From assembly GCA_001462345.1 (NCBI GenBank), contig LIUM01000046.1, positions 1-64,000 on the forward strand: 64,000 nucleotides of DNA, written 5' to 3'. This document shows, piece after piece, positions 209 through 62,463 of the stretch. The notes beneath the pieces are model-generated. The model was not told where the DNA came from and searched no databases. It saw only the letters and a list, made by a program, of their open reading frames with translations. The position numbers were made by a program, and so were the translations under genes. Source of the stretch: Fibrobacteria bacterium AD312 (GTDB lineage Bacteria; Fibrobacterota; Fibrobacteria; Fibrobacterales; Fibrobacteraceae). The first letter of the stretch is position 1. Every line of letters begins with the position of its first letter.

Positions 209-2425
209 TTAGCGGTTGATAAATTTTTGATAATTTACCATTGAACCTTGCTTCATTCGAATCACGTAATGACCTGCTGGCATTGCAGAAGAATCCCAAC
301 TAAAGTTGAAATTGCCTGCATTTAAGTTTTCGTTCAACAAAGTCTTAATTTTATGACCCTGTATGTCAAATAGATCTACCGATACAATTCCTGACTGAGC
401 CACACTGAGATTGATTTCATTTTTATGAATCGTCAGATTAATATTTGATTTATTGTAAATATTTTTTGGCTTTTCCGTTATTTTTAATGGGACATAGCCT
501 GGAATAGTCGTTGGTGCAGCCACATTGACAGGAGAACCACTTCCAGTTAACGTAAACACGGCTGAACCAATTTTTGAATCAGTTTGATTATCTGTTAGCA
601 CACTTAAAATAGTGATTGTACCTGTATGCGCTCCATCAGGGGTATATATCAACGTATCTTTTGTCGCATTTAATGTAAGAGTTCCTGTATAATTAGGATC
701 TAAATAATATGCTCCAAATGTTACGGGGTCACCATCTGCATCTTTAGCACGCATGGTAACTAAAGTGATATAAATTGGTGCTGTGTTTGGTTTTGAACCC
801 ATATTAGCTTTTGCATAAATGGTTGGTGCTTGATTTTCACAAATTAAATTAATCGTTGCGCTTGCTGTTCCGTTTGCATTTTGAGCCGTATAGTTAAGTG
901 TAACGAGACCTGGTGTTCCTGGAGGTGTAAATGTCATTGAATCGCCACTGAAAACGATACTACCAGCACTAACACTAGCTGCAGTTACGGACATTGATGA
1001 AGCAACCTTTGAAATTGGATTTGAAGCCCCAATCGTGCTAAATTTTAATGTTTTTGGAGTTTTATAACTAACAGAAAGAGTTGTATCTACTAAAATAGGC
1101 TTGCGATTAGTTATTTTAATTACAATCCGTTCTTGAATAGTTACACTACCCTGCGTTACATTATAATTAAGAATAATTTGTTCTGGAGACCCGTATTCTG
1201 CACTATTGAATGTAATAGAATTATCGGTAAAAGTAACAGATCCAGATACAGGATTTGCTACGGCTGAAATCGCCCCTCGAATACCTAACTCTGAACTAAA
1301 AACTTTACTTGATCCTTCTGAAACAGACGCTACAAATGTATTTCCTAATGGGTGTGACGAAGGAACATAACTTTTCCATTTATTGGTGCTAATATAGGCA
1401 TTAAAAACGCCTGCGGATGTACTTGTTCCAGAAAAACGACTCTTTGCATTATCCAAATTTAGAGTAGTTGTGCCTTCAGGGAACATGGCTGATGATTGAG
1501 TACCTGTGCCAGCATACCACATACAGCCACTGACCTTGTTTTGATCCATCCAAGAACGCCAACTAGAGGCATCACTAATGTTTCCATCGCCACTTGCATC
1601 AGAAGCACCCCATTCTGTAATAAAAATTGGGGCTGAAGCCATAGCACTAGTACCATTACTTTTATAACCATCATGATTAGCTGCAGCATAAAAATGCAAG
1701 GTATAAGCAATATTGCTGTAAGTATTATGCAAACCCTGGCTAACCTGTTCATTTGGTTTAGATGAGTAGAATGGAGTACCTACAACGACTAAATTATTAC
1801 TACCAGCACCACGAATAGCAGCAACCACTGATTTAGCGTAATTATTGATAGTACCAGCACCATCACTAACTGGCTCATTATAAATTTCCCAAATTATATT
1901 TGGAACATCTTTATACTCTGTAGCCATTTCTGTAAAAAAAGTGACTGCTTGATTGGTTTCACTTGAAGCATTGTGAGAATGCCAATCGACAATAACATAA
2001 ATGTCATTTGCAATTGCCGCATCAACAATATCTTTAATTAACTTTTTTTGATTTACCTTTTCATTATAACCAGCAGGTGTTGATAGATACCCATAACTCG
2101 TTACACCAGTATTTCCATCTGAAGCAGAAATTGGCTCACTATTTTCTTTGTAGTATTTAATAGCCATTGGAGCTCGAATAACGCCTATTTCAAAGTTATT
2201 TACAAACCAATCTACTGTTGCAGAATGAAATAATACAGCAGGATCTCCCGTAGACCAATATAAACTTGGACCTTTTAATTGGATAGGAACACTCGTTCCT
2301 GTCTTTTCACCACATAGGTTTCCACCACAAGAGATGATTTTTCCAAAATGACTGACAGGGCCAGCAAACGAAACCATCGATGCTAATAAAACCGAAATGG
2401 GTATAAATTTTGATAAATTCATCAT
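209..2425 (-). CDS. Secreted GH5 endoglucanase with Ig-like repeats and C-terminal sorting domain
   Basis: Predicted exported cellulase (endo-beta-1,4-glucanase). A signal peptide covers about residues 1-21. The glycoside hydrolase family 5 domain spans about residues 25-350: DWHSHN at 147-152, the acid/base Glu184 in IYNEP, and the nucleophile Glu271 in ITEWGAS. After it come Ser/Thr-rich beta-sandwich modules (about 360-650) that look Ig- or cadherin-like. The last ~75 residues (VDLFDIQGHKI...GHYVIRMKQG) form a type 9 secretion/FlgD-like terminal domain, suggesting export across the outer membrane. Family and catalytic residues are seen directly. Cellulose as substrate is inferred from the family and from the other plant-wall enzymes in the window. 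The gene is monocistronic, with its own terminator and a tandem 20-bp repeat about 75-110 bp upstream. Confidence 0.9.
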   Translation of the reverse strand: MMNLSKFIPISVLLASMVSFAGPVSHFGKIISCGGNLCGEKTGTSVPIQLKGPSLYWSTGDPAVLFHSATVDWFVNNFEIGVIRAPMAIKYYKENSEPISASDGNTGVTSYGYLSTPAGYNEKVNQKKLIKDIVDAAIANDIYVIVDWHSHNASSETNQAVTFFTEMATEYKDVPNIIWEIYNEPVSDGAGTINNYAKSVVAAIRGAGSNNLVVVGTPFYSSKPNEQVSQGLHNTYSNIAYTLHFYAAANHDGYKSNGTSAMASAPIFITEWGASDASGDGNISDASSWRSWMDQNKVSGCMWYAGTGTQSSAMFPEGTTTLNLDNAKSRFSGTSTSAGVFNAYISTNKWKSYVPSSHPLGNTFVASVSEGSSKVFSSELGIRGAISAVANPVSGSVTFTDNSITFNSAEYGSPEQIILNYNVTQGSVTIQERIVIKITNRKPILVDTTLSVSYKTPKTLKFSTIGASNPISKVASSMSVTAASVSAGSIVFSGDSMTFTPPGTPGLVTLNYTAQNANGTASATINLICENQAPTIYAKANMGSKPNTAPIYITLVTMRAKDADGDPVTFGAYYLDPNYTGTLTLNATKDTLIYTPDGAHTGTITILSVLTDNQTDSKIGSAVFTLTGSGSPVNVAAPTTIPGYVPLKITEKPKNIYNKSNINLTIHKNEINLSVAQSGIVSVDLFDIQGHKIKTLLNENLNAGNFNFSWDSSAMPAGHYVIRMKQGSMVNYQKFINR

Positions 2426-2497
2426 ATCCTCTAAAAAAAGACTTTTTTCTAAAATAAGTTTATATTTCTTTATAGTTCATTAATATAAGTAAAATAA

Positions 2498-2537
2498 ACG
2501 TTTCTTTTTGAAAACAAATGTTTCTTTTTGTAAACAT
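2498..2537. repeat. Two tandem 20-bp units upstream of the GH5 gene
   Basis: Units 2498-2517 and 2518-2537 differ at three of 20 positions. Each has GTTT and AAAC arms around a T-rich spacer; the second is the cleaner dyad, ATGTTT(8)AAACAT. A 20-bp period places both on nearly the same face of the helix. The position, upstream of the divergent cellulase start at 2425, suits an operator or activator site. The function is inference. Confidence 0.5.
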
Positions 2538-2626
2538 AAAGCTTGTTTTTTGCCTGAATAAGGCATAGTAATCGAATCATTAAAATGAATCAATTAATAG
2601 CACAGTGATTCCAATCACAAAAAAAT

Positions 2627-3391
2627 CTACGGCCGTATAATTGATCCTCGCCAAGAATCATTAAAAAAAGTCTTGAACAAAGGTTCTTCACTTTTTTTTA
2701 GTTCTTCTATCGCCTCTTGCATAGGACGTGAAGAACGATATAATTCTCGGTAAGACTTTTCAATAAAACGGATTCGCTCTTCAGGGAAATCATCGGCATG
2801 ACGTTTTAGAGCATGTAAATTAATGGAAGCCCATTTTAGTGGGTTACCTAAAGCACGGCTAGCAGGAGGAACGTCTCGATCTACTTTTAAAGTGCCCCCA
2901 ACAAAAGAGTAATCTCCGACTCGACAAAATTGATGAACGCCAGTATTACCACCGATGGTGGCAAAAGAACCAACATAAACATGACCACCTAACTGGACTC
3001 CATTGGCAAGTACCGCCCCAGTGCCAAGAATACAATCATGCCCGACATGAGAATAAGCCATAATAAGAGAGTCATCGCCAATGACCGTTCGACCAGTTGC
3101 AACAGTCCCTCGATTTAAGGTGCAATATTCACGAATGGTGCAAGACGATCCTATTTCTAAAAAAGTACGTTCTCCGTGATATTTTAAATCTTGTGGTGGA
3201 GCTCCTAAAACAGCACCATCATAAACAATCGTATTCGAACCTATTCGAGTACCACTACAAACTCGAACTCGACATTCTAAAACAACATTTTCACCTATTT
3301 CTACATCTTCTTCAACGATGCACCAAGGGCCAATAGAAGCGGAAGGGTGTATTTTTGTACGGGCGTGAACTAACGAGGAGGGATGATTCAT
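2627..3391 (-). CDS. lpxA: Acyl-[ACP]--UDP-N-acetylglucosamine O-acyltransferase LpxA
   Basis: First step of lipid A synthesis: transfer of a 3-hydroxyacyl chain from ACP to UDP-GlcNAc in the cytoplasm. The 254 residues match the usual length. The N-terminal two thirds is a left-handed beta-helix of hexapeptide repeats (HPSASIGPWC, VEIGENVV, and so on). The catalytic-His region reads YSHVGHDC, followed by GNTGVHQFCRVGD and the helical C-terminal domain with ALGNPLKWASINLHALKR. It is a stand-alone copy, with no lpxD, fabZ or lpxB beside it. Its start overlaps head-to-head with the 5' end of the divergent glycosyltransferase gene. Confidence 0.95.
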   Translation of the reverse strand: MNHPSSLVHARTKIHPSASIGPWCIVEEDVEIGENVVLECRVRVCSGTRIGSNTIVYDGAVLGAPPQDLKYHGERTFLEIGSSCTIREYCTLNRGTVATGRTVIGDDSLIMAYSHVGHDCILGTGAVLANGVQLGGHVYVGSFATIGGNTGVHQFCRVGDYSFVGGTLKVDRDVPPASRALGNPLKWASINLHALKRHADDFPEERIRFIEKSYRELYRSSRPMQEAIEELKKSEEPLFKTFFNDSWRGSIIRP

Positions 3392-49286: not shown

Positions 49287-50468
49287 ATGAACGAACCTGA
49301 TTTTCAAAATTTTTCTTTCTCTGAAAAAGATCGCAAAAAAGTTCTTCAATACAATGCAGATTTTGAGCATTTACTTACACACTTTAAGCTTTTTAAGCAA
49401 CCCATTCCTAACATTCTTCCTGTGGCCTTAGCATGGCTTTTTATTTTCACGTTTCCTCTTCTCTTAATGATTGATTATAGAAACAAACCACTCATTGAAA
49501 ATTTAACAAGCGTTGTTTCTATTTATATTCCTCTAATTTTTGCCGCCATTATCTTTGGACTTAATCAAATTCTCTTTATTCCTCGTTACTTTATACGAGG
49601 CCATTTTAGACGATATGTTTTCATTAACATCTTTCTAGTTTTAATAACCATTTCCTTTAGAGATTTATCAATCTTTTTATTAACAAATCCAGGGCCCCTA
49701 GATATTAAAACAATAATTGTTCATTTCTTTAACTTTAAGGACAGTATTGCTTATAGCCATACAGAACGCATTCAAGTTTTTATTCTATTTCTAGTTCTTG
49801 TTTTTATTAGTTGTGGCATTAACATTGTTTTTGGTGTTGGCATTCGACAAACTAAACACGCTCAATGGTTTAGATATCGAGAAAAGATGGCTTTACAAAC
49901 TGAGTTATCTTTTTTAAAAACACAACTAAGTCCTCATTTTTTATTTAATACTTTAAATAACATTACCGCTCTGGTAGATACTGATACCACTCTTGCTAAA
50001 AAAGCAATCCTTCAACTATCCAAATTGCTTAGAACCATTCTCTATGAAACAAAAACGGATTTTATCCTTTTAGAAAAAGAAATTGAAATTATTCAACGCT
50101 ATAGCGATTTAGAACGATTAAGACTACCTGAAGATATTGATTTTAAATTGACTACTTCCATTGAAAATAAAGAGGCAAAAATCACCCCACTTGTTTTAAT
50201 GCCTCTTGTAGAAAATGCGATTAAGCACAGCTTCAGTAACTCATCTAAACAATTCATTCACATTGATATTCAAGAAAAAGAAGGCTTAATCACCTTTATT
50301 TCTGAAAATTCCTGTTCTCCTTCTGCAATGCAAAAAAAAGGCCAAGGCGGAATTGGATTAAATACATTTATAAAACGAATGGATTCTTTTTATTTAAATG
50401 ACTATTCGTATAAAACAAACGAAGAAAATAATACATACAAAATATTCTTGAAATTTAAAAGCAAGTAA
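49287..50468 (+). CDS. Sensor histidine kinase, LytS/YehU type
   Basis: A 393-aa membrane kinase. Four hydrophobic helices lie in the first ~190 residues (LAWLFIFTFPLLLMI, YIPLIFAAIIFGLNQILF and others). The His_kinase (PF06580) domain follows: LKTQLSPHFLFNTLNNITALVD with the phospho-acceptor His, and a late HATPase part with VLMPLVENAIKHSF and GGIGLNTFIKRM. Such kinases normally pair with a LytTR regulator, but none is adjacent. A 42-bp triple repeat follows its stop. Confidence 0.85.
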   Translation: MNEPDFQNFSFSEKDRKKVLQYNADFEHLLTHFKLFKQPIPNILPVALAWLFIFTFPLLLMIDYRNKPLIENLTSVVSIYIPLIFAAIIFGLNQILFIPRYFIRGHFRRYVFINIFLVLITISFRDLSIFLLTNPGPLDIKTIIVHFFNFKDSIAYSHTERIQVFILFLVLVFISCGINIVFGVGIRQTKHAQWFRYREKMALQTELSFLKTQLSPHFLFNTLNNITALVDTDTTLAKKAILQLSKLLRTILYETKTDFILLEKEIEIIQRYSDLERLRLPEDIDFKLTTSIENKEAKITPLVLMPLVENAIKHSFSNSSKQFIHIDIQEKEGLITFISENSCSPSAMQKKGQGGIGLNTFIKRMDSFYLNDYSYKTNEENNTYKIFLKFKSK

Positions 50469-50490
50469 AACAATCTCCCGTGATATAGAG

Positions 50491-50624
50491 GTAAACAATC
50501 TTTTCTTTGAAACGTTTTCACAAAATGTAGAAGTAAACAATCTTTTCTTTGAAACGTTTTCACAAAATGTAGAAGTAAACAATCTTTTCTTTGAAACGTT
50601 TTCACAAAATGTAGAAGTAAACAA
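50491..50624. repeat. Three perfect 42-bp tandem repeats plus a partial fourth
   Basis: Unit starts at 50491, 50533 and 50575 are identical over 42 bp, and 8 bases of a fourth begin at 50617. Each unit contains an imperfect dyad centred on GAAAC|GTTTTC, reminiscent of LacI/PurR-type operators. The 42-bp period equals four turns of B-DNA, so the dyads face the same side. It lies about 225-360 bp before the ATG of the secreted pair. Confidence 0.85.
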
Positions 50625-50849: not shown

Positions 50850-52121
50850 ATGCTTAATAGAGTATTTATTCGTGTGTGGTTTACTTGTATAGCGTTAGTA
50901 GCAAGTATCCATGCGGCTGATTGTAAATCCATTTCCCTCTATTCTTCAGACAATCCCTCTCTAGGCTTTTTAAGGAGCTCTACATTTCCTGAAAATCCAG
51001 AATGGAAAGCCAACTGGGGAATCATGGGAGACATGAAACCACCTTATATTCGTTTTTCTGGTCAACAAAATCAAACAAAAAACTGGAAAGCCGTAGTTTC
51101 ATTTCCTCAAATGCCCCTTTATGCTTCAGATGGTTTTTTAGAACTTAAAATTAGAACCACTCAAAAAGCTCAAATTAAGATGGCGTTAGAGCAAGAAGAG
51201 TGGAATAGTTCTTCTTACTCTTTTTTTCTTGAAGCAAATCAAACACAGAATTTGAAAGTCCCTGTTTCTTCTGTCACCTCAAATACATCTTCGTTAATAG
51301 AAGGCATCTCTATAGAACTCATCCAAGTGCCCGCATACCAATACATCACACTATTTATAAATGATATTTCTTTTTCATGTACCTCTACTTCATCAAAAGT
51401 CAACACCTATTTAAAAGACGAAGATTCGCTATTTATTTTTAGTGAAACGGTTATAGAAAAAGCAGTTCGAATTCCTTTAGATACAGAAGCGGTAACAATA
51501 CCATATGCCTTAAAAAAGCATACTGACTCTGCTCAGATTGTTTTAAGAAGTAAATCAACAAGTCAAATTGTGCTTACCGAAATAGAACACCTTATTCTAC
51601 AAAACTTTATTTCACAAAAAGCAACTACTCCTAAACAATCATGGAATAACTGGAATGAATGCTTGTATTATATCAGCAAGAATCGTTTAAGCGATAGCTT
51701 ATTTGCTAACCCAAAAGCCATTTTTAGGCAAGCAAATGATTTTTCCGCTTCTTATAATTATCAAGCTATTCCCGTTTTGATAGGCTTTTTTAATTATGAA
51801 TTCATCCACTGTGAAGAGAAAAGAAGTGACTCTACTTGCATTAAAGATGAATTAAAACCCTCTAAAATAATGATCCCAGGATTCGGATCTTCCTTTATCT
51901 ATAGTTCTAAAGTCGACTTTATTTTAGACCCTTACTTTATTACAACAAATCAAAAATCAATTCCAGAAATAGAACTATTCCTTCAAAAGGAGTGGGTCCC
52001 ACTAAAGGTGCAATCAAAAATCACACATACTTTTGATGCTCTTGGTGTTCATTCTATTCCTGTGAGGCTTCGCTATGGTAGTGAAGTCATTGAAACCACC
52101 CTTCTCTTGGAGGTCCGCTAA
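50850..52121 (+). CDS. Secreted protein of unknown function, first of coupled pair
   Basis: 423 aa with a signal peptide (VWFTCIALVASIHAAD). The mature N-terminus carries YSSDN, a motif shared with the next protein (YSSQN). Residues about 30-190 look like a carbohydrate-binding or jelly-roll sandwich (WKAVVSFPQMPLYASDGFLELKI, ITLFINDISFSC). The later part has no recognised domain and has several Cys that could form disulfides. There is no lipobox and no sorting domain. The gene overlaps the hydrolase gene by TAATG and is preceded by a hairpin and the 42-bp repeats. Confidence 0.7.
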   Translation: MLNRVFIRVWFTCIALVASIHAADCKSISLYSSDNPSLGFLRSSTFPENPEWKANWGIMGDMKPPYIRFSGQQNQTKNWKAVVSFPQMPLYASDGFLELKIRTTQKAQIKMALEQEEWNSSSYSFFLEANQTQNLKVPVSSVTSNTSSLIEGISIELIQVPAYQYITLFINDISFSCTSTSSKVNTYLKDEDSLFIFSETVIEKAVRIPLDTEAVTIPYALKKHTDSAQIVLRSKSTSQIVLTEIEHLILQNFISQKATTPKQSWNNWNECLYYISKNRLSDSLFANPKAIFRQANDFSASYNYQAIPVLIGFFNYEFIHCEEKRSDSTCIKDELKPSKIMIPGFGSSFIYSSKVDFILDPYFITTNQKSIPEIELFLQKEWVPLKVQSKITHTFDALGVHSIPVRLRYGSEVIETTLLLEVR

Positions 52122-54661
52122 TGTTTTTACTTAGACTTTTACCTCTTTTTATCTTCGTTTTTTGTGTACATCCTGCATTTGCAAGCTCTCAGGATCTTTT
52201 TTTCTATTCTTCTCAAAATAACGAACTCTGCTCAAAACATAAATCTAAAGCTATTCCTTCTTTTTTTAATAAATGTTTTGATTCTAATGGAGATTATAAG
52301 GTAGTCTCTTTTCTAAATGCAGAGCAAGTTCGTGCCCGAGTGATTGATGCACCTGAAAATAATACATCCATTTCTGGATTTCATATAGAAAGACCGTTTT
52401 TAATCATTGACGGCATTCACTTAAGTACAGAAGAAAAACGTTCTCTAGAAGATTTTGAAAAAGAGGCGAATGCGTATGGTTTTCCTGAAGTATTAAAAGC
52501 CTTCGGCTATACACCTATACTTGTCCAGTTTCCAAGAACTGTTGAAAAATCACTTCAAGCGAATGCAATGGTTCTTCAAAAAATGCTCAACTACTTTGCA
52601 AATAATAAAGTATACCCATGGCCAAAAGCAATTGAAGAATCATTTATCATTTTAGGTATTAGCCAGGGAGGCGTTATTGGACGATACGCAGCTTATTTAT
52701 ATGACTCCAAGAAACCAGCTCATTATCCAAAAATAAAAATGTTTTCTTCTCTTGATTCGCCTCACCAAGGAGCAGTAATGCCTAGAGGTATTTTAGCAGC
52801 TATTGATTTTTGGGCGAGGGGAGCAAAACAAGGATCCGCTGAAGATTTTCTTGATTTAGTTTCAGGTCCAGGCGCTCGAGATCTATTAATCTATAATACA
52901 AAAAAAGATAATTCAGATGAAGCAAACTCTTTTGCTCCAAATTTAGATCAGAATCGTTTTCTTTTTAATGAGTACAGAAAGGCTGCTAACTATAAAGGAT
53001 TCCCTTCTATTTTAATAAGCCAAGGGCAACTCAAAGGTATCCCAAATAAACAGCCTGAAAAATCTTATTATCGCTTAAATCGATATGCAGAAAAAGGAAC
53101 AAAAGTTTGGGGTCGTGCAACTAGCCTTTCCAATTTTACATCTAGTGAAGATCAAGTTTTTGCAGAGAATAGAATTTATACCTTTTTAGAGATTGATAAG
53201 AAATGGTCTCTAAAGGGCGATGCTTCTTGGGATCTTGTTCAAGGAAGTACTTATCCATTTATTGAAACTCTATATAATGCTTTTGAAAAAGCCTACTTAC
53301 AAGCAATCCCTAATTACTTTGAGAAAACTGTCTTGGACTTGCAGTTTTATGGTAAGTGGGACGCACATGAATTAAATTCTAAAAGCACTAGTTTTATTCC
53401 AACCACAAGTTCTCTTGATTTACTGTGTGACGGTAAAATTTCTACTACCACAAAATGTGCACACACTCAAACAGAAAATGACATCTCATGGGAAGCTCCA
53501 GGAAATCGTTCTACTGCTAAAGCCATTTATGCCGTAGATAAAACACATCCTCGAAACAAAGAAAGCTATAGTGGCAGGCATATTGAACCTCCTTATAAAT
53601 CCGACGGAACTCCTAAAAAAAACGTAATTCAGGGAATACAAACGGATTTATGGCGTTTAATGTGTGAACTAGCGAAAATTGATTTCAATAAAGAAAAGCG
53701 CTCTTTTGATAACCCCTACTTTATTGGTCAATTTAATCCAGAAACAAGTTGTCTCAATCAAAGTCAAATTCCAGAAATTATATTGAATGCTGGCCGTGTT
53801 CAATATGAGCCTTTTCATCTTGCTCGTTATGATTATGCTTCTAATTCAAATGATCTTACCGAAGATGTTTCTTTTTCAGTTCCTGCAGGTTGGCAAAAAG
53901 TAGCTTCTTTTGATTACGGGAACAGCCTTCCTGCCAATGGTCTTTTTGAAGTAATTCTAAAAATGGACAATCCTAAATCCAATTGGTTAAAAGCAGATCT
54001 AATTTTAACTCAAGTCAAGAACGGATCGAATCAAATTCAATTAGAAGAAAAATCTATTTCTCCTGATGGCTTGTTTCAAACGATTCGATGGCAACTGCCC
54101 TCTTCATCTGATGCTCTACAAAAATTCAGGTGGATTCGGTTAATTTTAAATTCTTCTGGAGGAGACGTTACCATTTCTAAAGTTCGTTTTATTAATAACG
54201 CGTATTCTATTACATCTCCACCTCCTTCAATTCCTTTTTCCAAAATTTACCCTAGTGACCACGTTTTTTTCACGCCCTGGGATGCAAATGCAGCACATGA
54301 ATTAGACTATAAAGATAATCTTGGAAATGGAGCGCGATTCTTTTTTGAAAAAGCATATGATGGCGTTCAATGGTCATTTAAAAACGCCTATGATTTTAGT
54401 CCTTATAAGAAGCTAAGCGTTTCTTATTGGCCTAATACATGTTTACACTCTTTCCTATTCATTGACAATCCTAAAAAACAAAGAGCTCTATTAACAAATG
54501 GAACTTCTGATGGCTCCTTTGTAAAAAAGACTTTTTCTTTAGAAGAATTAATCAATACTAATTTAAATTCTTCTAACTATCTTAGCGGTAATAAGCTTGT
54601 TTTACAAACAACAACAAGTAATGAAGAATGTATTATTCAAAATATTAAATTGGAGCCTTAG
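52121..54661 (+). CDS. Large secreted alpha/beta-hydrolase (lipase-like)
   Basis: 846 aa. A signal peptide (FIFVFCVHPAFAS) is followed by YSSQN, resembling the partner protein. The hydrolase fold spans about residues 80-400: strand LIIDGIHLS, nucleophile elbow GISQGG in ILGISQGGVIGRYAAYLYD, and FSSLDSPHQGAVMP, as in PGAP1/DUF676-like lipases. The acid and His are not assigned with confidence. Two further beta-sandwich modules (about 575-710 and 725-846, each ending like TISKVRF or CIIQNIKLEP) look like carbohydrate-binding domains. Its start shares an A with the upstream stop (TAATG), so the two are co-translated. An ester-cutting role on cell-wall material is inference. Confidence 0.78.
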   Translation: MFLLRLLPLFIFVFCVHPAFASSQDLFFYSSQNNELCSKHKSKAIPSFFNKCFDSNGDYKVVSFLNAEQVRARVIDAPENNTSISGFHIERPFLIIDGIHLSTEEKRSLEDFEKEANAYGFPEVLKAFGYTPILVQFPRTVEKSLQANAMVLQKMLNYFANNKVYPWPKAIEESFIILGISQGGVIGRYAAYLYDSKKPAHYPKIKMFSSLDSPHQGAVMPRGILAAIDFWARGAKQGSAEDFLDLVSGPGARDLLIYNTKKDNSDEANSFAPNLDQNRFLFNEYRKAANYKGFPSILISQGQLKGIPNKQPEKSYYRLNRYAEKGTKVWGRATSLSNFTSSEDQVFAENRIYTFLEIDKKWSLKGDASWDLVQGSTYPFIETLYNAFEKAYLQAIPNYFEKTVLDLQFYGKWDAHELNSKSTSFIPTTSSLDLLCDGKISTTTKCAHTQTENDISWEAPGNRSTAKAIYAVDKTHPRNKESYSGRHIEPPYKSDGTPKKNVIQGIQTDLWRLMCELAKIDFNKEKRSFDNPYFIGQFNPETSCLNQSQIPEIILNAGRVQYEPFHLARYDYASNSNDLTEDVSFSVPAGWQKVASFDYGNSLPANGLFEVILKMDNPKSNWLKADLILTQVKNGSNQIQLEEKSISPDGLFQTIRWQLPSSSDALQKFRWIRLILNSSGGDVTISKVRFINNAYSITSPPPSIPFSKIYPSDHVFFTPWDANAAHELDYKDNLGNGARFFFEKAYDGVQWSFKNAYDFSPYKKLSVSYWPNTCLHSFLFIDNPKKQRALLTNGTSDGSFVKKTFSLEELINTNLNSSNYLSGNKLVLQTTTSNEECIIQNIKLEP

Positions 54662-54850: not shown

Positions 54851-55624
54851 ATGATGAAGTCATTTAGATTTTATTTTCCTTGTTTCTTTTTACTGGTATC
54901 ATCCTTTTTTTTAAGCGGATGCGATACAGTGACATTGCATGCTTTAGGAAGCAACCCTATTCCTGTATTGCACGAACCTAGAACTGAAAAAACGAATTCC
55001 AGTGAGATAGCTCTTAGTGCTAACTTAAACGGTTCTGTTTCTACTACTGGAATAAACATCAAAGAATATTCTTCTATCGGAGGTCATCTTGATGTCACTT
55101 ATCGTTTAGGAAATCTTTTTTCTCCACTATTCTTTAATGGAACAATATTTGGTTCGTATGGAAAATTAAAACTCACTTGTGATGAGTCTGATTGTAATGA
55201 AGATTTTCGTTCTCTTACAGAAGAAGAAAAATTCTATTCAAATGCCTCCATTCAAGAACGCATTAGAGTTGGCGTTGAATTAATGCCATTTTTCCTCACC
55301 ATTGGCGCGAGCGCTGGCCTTCATTTTTATCAAGATTTTTTACAATATGAAGATATAAGAAAAGAACTTAAAAGGACTGACTATGTTAGTGGCAACTATT
55401 CTTACGATGTATATCCTGAACTCCGTGTATGGGTTGGTTCAAGACTTGGGCCAAGAGGTAAATATGGCACAATCAATCTTGAAGGTTCATACCAATTAGA
55501 TGCTGATTACTATGATAATATTATTTCTCTCAGCTTAGGTTACTTTCATCCAAGTGGCTGGCACGGAGGCGTAATAATACATAACTCCATGATTCTTACT
55601 GCAGGAAAAAGCTTTAAGTTTTAA
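54851..55624 (+). CDS. Outer-membrane lipoprotein, beta-barrel-like
   Basis: The frame opens at 54743, but the first 36 residues precede any ribosome site. ATG 54851, after GGAGAG, gives the signal FFLLVSSFFLSGC, a good lipobox. The mature ~235 residues are rich in alternating strands (SIGGHLDVTYRLGNLF, RIRVGVELMPFFLTIGASAGLHFY, SLSLGYFHPSGWHGGVII), ending in an aromatic-terminal KSFKF that suits a barrel. The CDESDCNED segment has a Cys pair. No family is recognised. Confidence 0.65.
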   Translation: MMKSFRFYFPCFFLLVSSFFLSGCDTVTLHALGSNPIPVLHEPRTEKTNSSEIALSANLNGSVSTTGINIKEYSSIGGHLDVTYRLGNLFSPLFFNGTIFGSYGKLKLTCDESDCNEDFRSLTEEEKFYSNASIQERIRVGVELMPFFLTIGASAGLHFYQDFLQYEDIRKELKRTDYVSGNYSYDVYPELRVWVGSRLGPRGKYGTINLEGSYQLDADYYDNIISLSLGYFHPSGWHGGVIIHNSMILTAGKSFKF

Positions 55625-57385: not shown

Positions 57386-57516
57386 AAAATTGGTTTGCTT
57401 CCACAAAATTGAGCGAGGCCGTGCCACAGCCAATTTTGAAGAAAATGCTTTTTTGAGGAGCTCAAAAGGCACTCATGTCTTTTGAGTGGTGGGTCTCCAT
57501 TTGTAAAGGAGTTTTT
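57386..57516 (+). promoter_or_regulatory. Structured leader of the pectate lyase gene
   Basis: AAAATTGG (57386-57393) pairs with CCAATTTT (57430-57437), and AAAATTG at 57405-57411 can compete for the same arm. Further on TTTTGAG (57451-57457) pairs with CTCAAAA (57461-57467), while CTCAAAAG (57461-57468) can pair instead with CTTTTGAG (57479-57486). These exclusive choices look like an attenuator or riboswitch, but no known class was recognised. Confidence 0.5.
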
Positions 57517-59820
57517 ATGGGAATGGGTTTCTTAAAAAACAAAACATCAATCGGTATTCTTTGTTTATTATGTTCAATGCCTCTACAAGCTGCTGATTTG
57601 CTCGCTTTTCCTGGTGCAGAAGGCTTTGGACGTTTCACACTTGGAGCAAGAGCCGTCTCTTCTCCCGAAATTTATCATGTAACTAATTTAAATGATTCTG
57701 GAGTGGGATCTTTTCGCGATGCCGTTAGTAAAGCAGGACGAATTGTTGTTTTTGACGTTTCTGGTGTTATCAATTTAAAATCCACTCTAATATTTAGCGG
57801 AAACTCTATTATTGCAGGACAAACCGCTCCTGGTGATGGCATTATGCTTTATGGAGATAGGGTTTCTTTTTCTGGTGCTAATAACTTGATCATTCGATAC
57901 CTTCGAATTCGCATGGGAATCAACGGAACCTCTGGTAAAGATGCTGCAGGTGTAGCCAATGGAAAAGATATGATTTTTGATCACGTCTCAGTCACTTGGG
58001 GAAGAGATGAAACTTTTTCGATTAGCTGGGATAGTAAGGGAACGGAACCATCTAATATCACCATCCAAAATTCCATTATTGGACAAGGACTTCAAACACA
58101 TTCCTGTGGTGGTTTAATGCAAACCGATGGCGGTGTTACATTATTCAGAAACTTATATATTGATAATAAAACAAGAAATCCTAAAGTCAAAGGTCTAAAT
58201 CAATTTGTAAACAATGTCATATATAACTGGGGCGGCGGCGGCGGTTATATTATGGGTGGATCAGCAGGCGATTCTTGGGCAAGTATTGAAGACAACTACT
58301 TTATTAAAGGCCCTTCCACAGGTGGTACGGAAGCCTTTGTTAGACCAACGGAAACATTCCAAGTATTTCCAAAAAACAATTATTTAGACTATAGTTTAGA
58401 TGGTGTTTTGAATGGTTCTATCGCAGATGAATCCGTCTATAGCGGAGCTACCATTGTTTCTTCTTATAGTGGATTTTCTAATTCTCCTCAATTACACCCA
58501 ACAATCAAAGCTCAAACTTCCGCCGCTGAAGCATACAAGATCATAGTAGAAGACGTTGGTGCATCTTATCCAGCTAGAGATGAAGTAGATACTTACCTCA
58601 TTAACGAATTAAAGTCTCTTGGGTCTAAAGGAGCTTTGATTTCGAATGAATCTGCACTTGGCCTTTCAGGAGGTGTTGGAACTCTTGCTTCTGGAACGGC
58701 ACCCACTGATACCGATAAAGATGGTATACCCGATTCTTGGGAAGACCAAATGGGATTAAATAAAAATAATGCCTCCGATGCAATTACAAAGGACGCTTCT
58801 GGATATCTTTATATTGAAAAATATATCAACGGTCTAGTGGAAAAAACAACTAACCCCAGTTTATCAGCCAAAGGATCTTCATCTCAAACCATTGTTCTTG
58901 GCGACACGATTAGCACCATAACTTATACTTTTGCAAATTGTACTGGTGCTCAAGTTACAGGCCTTCCTAAAGGAGTTGTTAGTAACTTAAATGCAGCTCA
59001 AAAAACATTATCCATAAGTGGAACTCCAACTGAAACAGGCACATTCCAATTCACCGTAACCACAAGTGGAGGCGAAGGGAATGCGGCAAGTCTTTCTGGG
59101 AGTATCACTGTAGGAAAAGCAGCACCCGTTGTTGCTCCAGTAGCGATTCTTTCAAATCTTAATGCAGCAAATCCAGTAGAAGGAGATGGTGTCTATGAAG
59201 AAAAAAATACTGGGTATATAGATAATGGGTATTATAATTTTTCTAATCTCATGGGAAGCTACGGTTTATGGGAAATCTCTTCAAAATCAAGTGGGGAAGC
59301 TATTTTATCACTTCGTTTTGCAAATGCTGGTACTACTTCAAGAGGAATGACTTTATCAATTAATGATTCTCTCATTGGAATTATTTCTTTCCCATCAACT
59401 GCTTCTTGGACTTCTTGGGATTCCATTTCTGTTAAAATTCCTCTAAAAAGTGGCGTAAATACCATTTCCTTAGAATCCATCACTAGTGATGGAGGCCCTA
59501 ATTTAGACCAATTTGGATTTAATATAGATGACGTTTTTTTATGGGATGGAATAACACGTATTTCAAACATAAAGAAATCCAATAAAACATTCACTTATAA
59601 TATCCACTCAGGAGTAATTCAATCCGCTCAAGATGGAATTATGGAAGTCAATGTCTTTGACTTGCAAGGGAAACGTGTTTTATCCAAAAAGCTCTCTATT
59701 ATGCAGGGAAAAACATTGTTCTCAATTGAAAATGAGAATTTGTCATTAGGATCTTATTTGGTTCAAATTAGGTTGAATCATAAGAATGTTTCTATTTTCA
59801 AATGGACCCAAATGAAATAG
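57517..59820 (+). CDS. Secreted pectate lyase (PL1-like) with C-terminal modules and sorting domain
   Basis: 767 aa, predicted to cut pectate by beta-elimination. ATG 57517 follows AAGGAG; the frame opens earlier at 57475 without one. The signal peptide ends near LQAADL. The parallel beta-helix domain (to about residue 330) shows FPGAEGFGRFTLGARA, NDSGVGSFRDAV, IAGQTAPGDGIMLYG, IRYLRIRMG and DHVSVTWGRDE. Next is TDTDKDGIPDSWED, a calcium-binding thrombospondin-3-like loop. Then come an Ig-like module and a CBM35-like sandwich (about 540-665). The last ~75 residues form a sorting-like domain (VFDLQGKRVLSKKL). Pectate as substrate follows from the family. A structured leader precedes it and a terminator follows. 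Confidence 0.88.
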   Translation: MGMGFLKNKTSIGILCLLCSMPLQAADLLAFPGAEGFGRFTLGARAVSSPEIYHVTNLNDSGVGSFRDAVSKAGRIVVFDVSGVINLKSTLIFSGNSIIAGQTAPGDGIMLYGDRVSFSGANNLIIRYLRIRMGINGTSGKDAAGVANGKDMIFDHVSVTWGRDETFSISWDSKGTEPSNITIQNSIIGQGLQTHSCGGLMQTDGGVTLFRNLYIDNKTRNPKVKGLNQFVNNVIYNWGGGGGYIMGGSAGDSWASIEDNYFIKGPSTGGTEAFVRPTETFQVFPKNNYLDYSLDGVLNGSIADESVYSGATIVSSYSGFSNSPQLHPTIKAQTSAAEAYKIIVEDVGASYPARDEVDTYLINELKSLGSKGALISNESALGLSGGVGTLASGTAPTDTDKDGIPDSWEDQMGLNKNNASDAITKDASGYLYIEKYINGLVEKTTNPSLSAKGSSSQTIVLGDTISTITYTFANCTGAQVTGLPKGVVSNLNAAQKTLSISGTPTETGTFQFTVTTSGGEGNAASLSGSITVGKAAPVVAPVAILSNLNAANPVEGDGVYEEKNTGYIDNGYYNFSNLMGSYGLWEISSKSSGEAILSLRFANAGTTSRGMTLSINDSLIGIISFPSTASWTSWDSISVKIPLKSGVNTISLESITSDGGPNLDQFGFNIDDVFLWDGITRISNIKKSNKTFTYNIHSGVIQSAQDGIMEVNVFDLQGKRVLSKKLSIMQGKTLFSIENENLSLGSYLVQIRLNHKNVSIFKWTQMK

Positions 59821-60804: not shown

Positions 60805-62463
60805 CTATTGCTTTTTGTTCTTTAAACGTGGCCAATAATCTGTGGGACGTTGATTCCAATAGGATGCTTTAATCCAATCGGGTTTACGAGAAACAAAACT
60901 AACATGCAGTTCATCGATAGCTCCATAGAAATATTGCCCAGAGCTATTTGAACTTAAAGGAAAAACTTGACGCCCTATCTCAAATAGATTTTCTGTATAT
61001 CGTTCTGATTCATATCCACCAATTTTAGGCTCGTTTGTAATTAAAGAATCATTGATATACAAATTGGTTTCTTGGCCTCTCATTGTGATTGTAATATAAG
61101 TCCAATCTTTTGAAGTTTCCATTGTTGTATCTGGAAGATACCAATAACGAGTAGTTCCCGTTTCTGCTTCTTCGTATTCCTCAAACAACCATCCTGTAGG
61201 ATATAAGTATTTTAGATGGTATTGGGTCGCCCCTTTACCATATACAAAACGACTTGTATTTAAAGTGTCTAAACGAACCCAGACAGAAATACTCATCGTA
61301 TCGTCTATTGCAAAATTTAAGTCGCCTGAAGCCGAATTTGGAATACTGACATAACTACTTTTTCCATTATAAAAAAACGATTTTCCAACAGAACCTGGTT
61401 CTTCACGAACATCATTGGAAACCCCTGGGAATTGTTTTAATTCAGTAGCATCTTCAACTAAAGAATCCCCTTCATCAAAATGCCATACGGCTATATAGCC
61501 AGCAGATTCAGGGAAAACATCTTTTGCATAAATAGTGGATAGACCTTCATTAAAATGAAGAGAAAGAGTATCCTCTACAAGTAAAGAATCCACTCGAATC
61601 CAAAAAACAATTTCTTTAGAAATCACGTCATATCGAGCTAAAGAAATGGGTAAGTCAAAATCCCCACGCATTGCAGTCCAACGGCCACTCAAGCGACTGA
61701 GTACATCAAAATCAATTAAAGTGGAATCTATTCGAAATGCAAGTGGGATATCTCTTATAATAGAACTTAACGTATCCCCATCAGGATATTTAAGAGGAGC
61801 AATTAAACTTAAAGAAAGTAAAGATGCATTGATTTTTAAAGTATCATCTGATGCAATAGTTACATTTCGAGCAAGAGTATACCCATTTTCTACAGACTCT
61901 CCAAAGGGGATAAATACCAAGGAATCATAATCAGCAACAGGTAACGAATCCACAAATATAGTCCCGTATTTTACGGTCACAGGCCTATATAATGTAGTCC
62001 CTTGTAAAATAACGAAACCGCTATCATTTTCATCTAAATCTTCTACACCTATACGAAGAACGCCTGTTGGCAAAAGATTTTCTTCAATGACTGAATCCTC
62101 GTCTATCTCTAAATTTTGGATCAATAAACGCTCGCCCGAAGCCTGATCGTATGCTTCAAGAGAAAACTCTCCTTTAGGTAAAGAATCGAAAGAAAAATGG
62201 CCCAAAGAATCTGTAGTTGTCTTAAAAAACAATGGTAAAGTGTCGTGCATAACGTTAAAATCAGAAGGGACACATTGTACACGAGCTAAGACAGCAGGTT
62301 CTTTTCCTTTTAGCATTAAAATACCAGCCAATTCAGGATTACCTGATTCGGCACTGTTTCCACCTGCTTGTTGATCAAAACAACCTAGGCAAGTAAAAAA
62401 AATAAGTAGTATATAAACCCAAGCCCGATTAATAAGACAACTCCTTTGAGTTTTATAAGCCAA
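60805..62463 (-). CDS. Lipoprotein with LamG-like domain
   Basis: 552 aa. The N-terminal signal ends in lipobox CLGC (Cys28), followed by QQAGGNSAESGNPELAG. Residues about 45-135 resemble a carboxypeptidase-regulatory/prealbumin-like sandwich (SLGHFSFDSLPKGEFSLEAYD). Residues about 325-545 are a LamG/concanavalin A-like domain (YIAVWHFDEGDSLVED, FFYNGKSSYVSIPNS, MSISVWVRLDT, LYINDSLI). This is a typical surface-lipoprotein layout; a glycan- or cellulose-binding role is inference. It is divergent from the TIGR02147 gene. Confidence 0.78.
   Translation of the reverse strand: MAYKTQRSCLINRAWVYILLIFFTCLGCFDQQAGGNSAESGNPELAGILMLKGKEPAVLARVQCVPSDFNVMHDTLPLFFKTTTDSLGHFSFDSLPKGEFSLEAYDQASGERLLIQNLEIDEDSVIEENLLPTGVLRIGVEDLDENDSGFVILQGTTLYRPVTVKYGTIFVDSLPVADYDSLVFIPFGESVENGYTLARNVTIASDDTLKINASLLSLSLIAPLKYPDGDTLSSIIRDIPLAFRIDSTLIDFDVLSRLSGRWTAMRGDFDLPISLARYDVISKEIVFWIRVDSLLVEDTLSLHFNEGLSTIYAKDVFPESAGYIAVWHFDEGDSLVEDATELKQFPGVSNDVREEPGSVGKSFFYNGKSSYVSIPNSASGDLNFAIDDTMSISVWVRLDTLNTSRFVYGKGATQYHLKYLYPTGWLFEEYEEAETGTTRYWYLPDTTMETSKDWTYITITMRGQETNLYINDSLITNEPKIGGYESERYTENLFEIGRQVFPLSSNSSGQYFYGAIDELHVSFVSRKPDWIKASYWNQRPTDYWPRLKNKKQ

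Follow-up and report, generated by a model that had tools for sequence, protein, structure and literature searches.

The window, a stretch of 64,000 nucleotides, harbors two overlapping genes on its forward strand, each of which is present once in the genome. Gene 1 (50850..52121) is an open reading frame for a partner protein of 423 amino acids, P0001, and gene 2 (52121..54661) encodes P0002, a predicted secreted alpha/beta hydrolase of 846 amino acids. Both proteins have a signal-peptide-like N-terminus, which covers residues 1-22 in the gene 1 product. The genes are joined by a TAATG stop/start overlap (52119..52123), in which the last A of the TAA is also the first A of the ATG. An earlier note on this DNA had described this overlap, and both reading frames as well as their junction proved to be real. 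It had also claimed that the two mature proteins start with a related YSS(D/Q)N stretch, but this resemblance is due to chance. The stretch was found in 2 of 43 gene-1 homologues and in 1 of 40 gene-2 homologues, the latter being P0002 itself, and AD312 is the only genome among them in which both proteins carry it. Matches at four or more of the five positions occurred in 68 of 1564 gene-1 by gene-2 cross pairs, and the N-terminal profiles of the two proteins did not match each other (hhalign 0.3%). The stretch was rejected as a common signal because it is rare in homologues and equally good matches are found among mismatched pairs.

Directly downstream of the pair lies a third gene on the same strand (54851..55624), which was overlooked in the first, sequence-only reading. 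It encodes a predicted outer-membrane lipoprotein of 257 amino acids with the lipobox LSGC and a C-terminal GKSFKF beta-barrel signature. Members of the gene 3 family follow the pair in 55 of 58 loci, usually at a distance of no more than 100 bases, and share the lipobox, an SMG..MP..H.PR-like motif and the C-terminal sequence GK[TS]F.F. With a lipobox and a C-terminal aromatic residue throughout these 55 loci, the product looks like an outer-membrane barrel lipoprotein, and it had no match in Pfam. The gene was detected in 84 of the 168 genomes of the phylum, in four genera in which the pair also occurs; it is probably the third member of the cassette. Upstream of the pair, a gene for a LytS-type histidine kinase (49287-50468) is syntenic in 44 loci, and no response-regulator gene is evident beside it within the window. 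Between the kinase gene and gene 1 lies a 42-bp tandem repeat (50486-50624; 3.3 copies, 98% identity), whose core was found nowhere else in the genome. Farther downstream, the window encodes a pectate-lyase-like protein (57475-59820), in which a CBM6 is combined with an Ig domain and a weak sorting tail of type IX, and a protein resembling a lipoprotein (60805-62463) that contains a concanavalin-like domain, Laminin_G_3.

The proposed pairing was to stand or fall with the adjacency of the two genes in relatives. Gene 1 is located directly 5' of gene 2 in all 58 Fibrobacteraceae loci fetched from GTDB, of which the named ones carry, with few exceptions, the label Fibrobacter or Fibrobacteraceae. 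When the ATG nearest to the expected place was taken as the start codon, the spacing corresponded to the TAATG overlap (-1) in 46 loci, to a 4-base overlap in five, to +1 in six and to +2 in one. A Fibrobacter-type pair also occurs in L109, a record titled Clostridiales bacterium Firm_16, which is probably a contig of Fibrobacter that was binned in error. Of 201 genomes searched, 85 contain gene 2 and 83 contain gene 1, and the two sets are nearly identical. The profile search across the phylum, which the earlier note had suggested, likewise revealed co-distribution of the pair: the gene 1 profile matched 83 of 168 genomes, which represent five genera within a single family, strong matches to gene 2 followed the same genome set, and the other genera of that family showed neither gene 1 nor strong gene 2 matches. 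For genome G012, in which both genes are located at contig ends, no adjacency was called. No paper on the pair was found in a literature search.

An AlphaFold2 model of P0001 (mean pLDDT 90.6) comprises two domains, whose relative placement is uncertain because of a pTM of 0.58. Residues 25-180 (50922..51389) form a beta-sandwich, as the earlier note had claimed, with conserved Cys25 and Cys177 and the invariant residues W52, W56, Y66, W79, Y165, E48, E51, N55, R68 and Q164. Its top PDB matches in Foldseek include carbohydrate-binding modules of families CBM8, 11, 29, 30 and 4 at 9-14% identity, with a probability of 1.00 and a target TM of up to 0.64, which places it among CBM-like folds. A variable linker of low confidence follows (residues 181-225, 51390..51524), with pLDDT below 50 at positions 183-191 and a mean identity of 25%. 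The C-terminal part (residues 226-423, 51525..52118) consists of helices and Ig-like strands. Gene 1 had no match in Pfam, and none of the Pfam CBM families was matched by the gene 1 family. A hit to NCBIfam TruD, whose 23.5 bits fell far short of the cut-off (583), was attributed to chance. Sequence searches of the PDB with the gene 1 or gene 2 profile returned nothing convincing. Thus the statement that gene 1 has no known enzyme fold was correct as worded, but its C-terminal half does have a recognisable relative, which is described below.

Fold prediction, which had been proposed for each protein, resolved P0002 (mean pLDDT 87.5, pTM 0.82) into an alpha/beta core followed by two C-terminal beta-sandwiches. 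The core covers residues 85-480 (52373..53560) according to the secondary structure of the model, weak Pfam matches and a profile match to fused hydrolases; it has the beta/alpha arrangement of the alpha/beta-hydrolase fold with a GxSxG elbow after strand 5, and was classed by motif and profile, as the Foldseek results for P0002 were dominated by the sandwiches. All scores remained below the Pfam gathering thresholds: 19.9 bits for Palm_thioest (PF02089; 26.8 needed), 13.9 bits for DUF676 (PF05057; 20.3 needed) and 11.5 bits for PGAP1 (PF07819; 24.3 needed). These weak matches centre on the nucleophile elbow, where gene 2 resembles the three families, and judged from its sequence the protein is a PGAP1/Palm_thioest-like alpha/beta hydrolase, at sub-threshold scores. 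The GISQGG elbow recognised in the earlier note corresponds to residues 179-184 (52655..52672), and its Ser181 (52661-52663) is invariant in 48 of 48 relatives. Asp212 (52754..52756), part of an SLDSPHQGA motif after strand 6, is likewise invariant, as are Gly184, Arg188, Pro214, Gly217, Phe425, Pro427 and Ser430 across these 48 diverse members. Either Asp212 or Asp371 (53231..53233; Asp in 45 of 48) may act as the catalytic acid. Asp212 appears to be the better candidate because it follows strand 6, as does the catalytic Asp of pancreatic lipase. His476 (53546..53548) is the probable catalytic histidine; it is probably the counterpart of a His in an N-x-x-H motif that is invariant in the fused hydrolase group, although the alignment is uncertain at this point. 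Judged by conservation, Ser181, Asp212 or Asp371, and His476 would probably form the triad.

The two tail domains of gene 2, C1 (residues 566-700, 53816..54220) and C2 (residues 701-846, 54221..54658, with invariant Cys774 and Cys837), were assigned from the model and the fold search. Their Foldseek matches include a tandem CBM22, in agreement with the carbohydrate-binding-like tails described earlier. The sandwiches of both proteins resemble CBM4, 8, 11, 22, 29 and 30 in fold, but share only about 7-14% identity with these modules and match none of their sequence families. Profile homology between the gene 1 sandwich and the gene 2 tails was absent (0.2-1.8%), and the three sandwiches did not match one another. 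Six cysteines are invariant and several others nearly so, which fits export.

The relative of the gene 1 C-terminal domain was found in hydrolases of other phyla. Distant Bacteroidota hydrolases detected by profile begin with an additional N-terminal domain, and a search with one of them matched 36 of 80 genomes of another phylum, with many matches spanning both this domain and the hydrolase. When a profile was built from 24 such N-domains, it aligned with the C-terminal domain of gene 1 over 158 columns (residues ~257-417) with an hhalign probability of 94.4% and an E-value of 9.4e-8. Eight column shuffles and a reversed profile gave at most 0.4%, and the other domains of the pair at most 1.5%. 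The deeper profile was essential, since three Bacteroidota sequences alone yielded a weak match of 1.7%. The hydrolase profiles of gene 2 and the fused proteins matched as well (98.2%, E 3e-14). In both forms the partner domain precedes the hydrolase, and the break between gene 1 and gene 2 coincides with the domain boundary of the fused proteins. Single-chain PGAP1-like hydrolases with a type IX tail occur, for example, in Hymenobacter elongatus (L125:4777-7983) and Bacteroidetes CTSoil_022 (L121:5146-9999). They share the motifs GxSxxG, LDSPHQGA and FIPTxSAL with the Fibrobacter pair, and their N-terminus corresponds to the C-terminal half of gene 1. However, no CBM-like domain precedes their partner domain, and they are made as one chain with a T9SS sorting tail, whereas in Fibrobacter the partner domain is supplied in trans, from two open reading frames in all 58 loci, and neither chain has such a tail. 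At the C-terminus, the fused forms have either a type IX sorting tail or a FlgD-like one. The sorting domain (PF18962/TIGR04183) is absent from P0001 and P0002, and only one of the 45 A3 members, which is from Bacteroidota, carries it. The A5 search of the phylum mostly returned matches to sorting tails and was little informative. Three hydrolases of the other phylum (L177, L178 and L180) have no N-domain, and no partner was found upstream of them; the domain is therefore common but not universally required.

Separate genes for partner and hydrolase were also found outside this arrangement. Genome G120, which belongs to the same class but to a different family, has its own split pair with an upstream gene overlapping the hydrolase gene. 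Both the fused N-domain profile (E 2.0e-4) and the profile of the gene 1 C-terminal domain (E 2.3e-4) detect the product of this upstream gene, which outscores all of 300 unrelated open reading frames. G012 contains a second hydrolase system (L143:2258-5941), in which an upstream gene for 441 amino acids overlaps the hydrolase gene and a lipoprotein gene overlaps the end of the latter; this second partner was matched weakly, and by the fused profile only (E 1.2e-3). At another locus of G012 (L142:323-1006 and 1995-3026), the C-terminal sandwiches of gene 2 are followed by a second, partial copy, and lipoprotein genes follow each copy; this is a tandem duplication near the contig end.

Taken together, it is fairly probable that the products of the two genes are the chains of a single extracytoplasmic serine hydrolase, with gene 1 docking on gene 2. 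This is supported by the adjacency in 58 of 58 loci, the same distribution among genera and the fusion of the partner domain to the hydrolase elsewhere, the last of which argues most strongly for a physical complex. Gene 2 would be the catalytic chain, related to the PGAP1 and palmitoyl-thioesterase families, and would cleave an acyl ester or thioester by means of a Ser181-Asp-His triad. Gene 1 would contribute, in a chain of its own, the domain built into the hydrolase N-terminus in other phyla; it would be made by coupled translation, exported alongside the enzyme and dock non-covalently. In Fibrobacteraceae the partner may have gained one CBM-like sandwich and the enzyme two, replacing the type IX sorting tail. 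These sandwiches would tether the enzyme to an insoluble polymer or to the surface, probably aided by the gene 3 lipoprotein. The substrate can be guessed to be acyl esters of the plant cell wall or of membranes. The argument is strongest for binding of the two proteins, less so for hydrolysis of esters and weakest for a target in the plant wall. The "candidate cell-wall esterase/lipase complex" of the earlier note is thus plausible from the sequences: the complex is backed by the 58 conserved neighbourhoods and the fused domain, the assignment to esterases or lipases comes from catalytic motifs only, at scores below the Pfam cut-offs, and the cell wall is suggested solely by the CBM-like folds.

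A variant of this explanation holds that the hydrolase targets lipids or lipoproteins of the cell's own envelope, in maturation or surface anchoring, and not plant material. Relatives of the PGAP1 and thioesterase type process lipids, and the adjoining gene for an outer-membrane lipoprotein has a matching distribution, but the three CBM-like sandwiches speak against this variant, which seems somewhat unlikely. Gene 1 could also be a dedicated chaperone, similar to lipase-specific foldases, that assists folding or export of the hydrolase and is no subunit of the active enzyme. The obligate coupling and the order of partner before enzyme would suit such a role, and in cis the domain could serve as an intramolecular chaperone. 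However, the fused relatives keep it in the chain with no sign of cleavage, no known foldase was matched in Pfam, and the conserved CBM-like sandwich of gene 1 is unexpected in a mere foldase, making this role unlikely. That both proteins carry CBM-like sandwiches would be consistent with two independent secreted polymer-binding proteins that are only co-expressed, with gene 1 as an adhesin or scaffold and gene 2 as an esterase; this is quite unlikely, because neither the fusion of the gene 1 C-terminal domain to the hydrolase nor the strict coupling in 58 of 58 loci would be expected. PGAP1/DUF676-like lipases also occur as antibacterial effectors beside immunity genes, but an effector with its immunity protein is highly improbable here, given single-copy genes conserved across genera instead of variable ones, signal peptides on both proteins and a partner domain that is fused in cis elsewhere.

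A broader and more tentative reading can also be considered. Residues 226-423 of gene 1 might found an undescribed domain family whose members play, as subunit or domain, a non-catalytic part in a surface hydrolase widespread in the FCB group. In Fibrobacteraceae, fission of the chain, acquisition of polymer-binding modules and recruitment of the barrel lipoprotein might then have replaced type IX anchoring and given rise to a three-protein surface machine. Type IX export has been proposed for lignocellulolytic enzymes of Fibrobacter succinogenes (PMC6851124). The carbohydrate esterases reported in the genome paper of this species belong to CE1, 2, 6, 8, 12 and 15, the only families covered by the S85 list (PMC3079729). 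Like gene 2 they are secreted and often carry CBMs, but gene 2 matches a different hydrolase group.

The analysis turns two proteins that had no family assignment into a testable enzyme complex. It also defines a partner domain with no match in Pfam or NCBIfam that recurs with the same hydrolase in cis and in trans, and the fused and split forms offer a clean comparison for the role of this domain. Fibrobacter live in guts and digesters and are major fibre degraders of herbivore guts, and the pair is conserved across the genus. Should plant acyl esters be its substrate, the complex would add an activity beyond the listed carbohydrate-esterase families of Fibrobacter.
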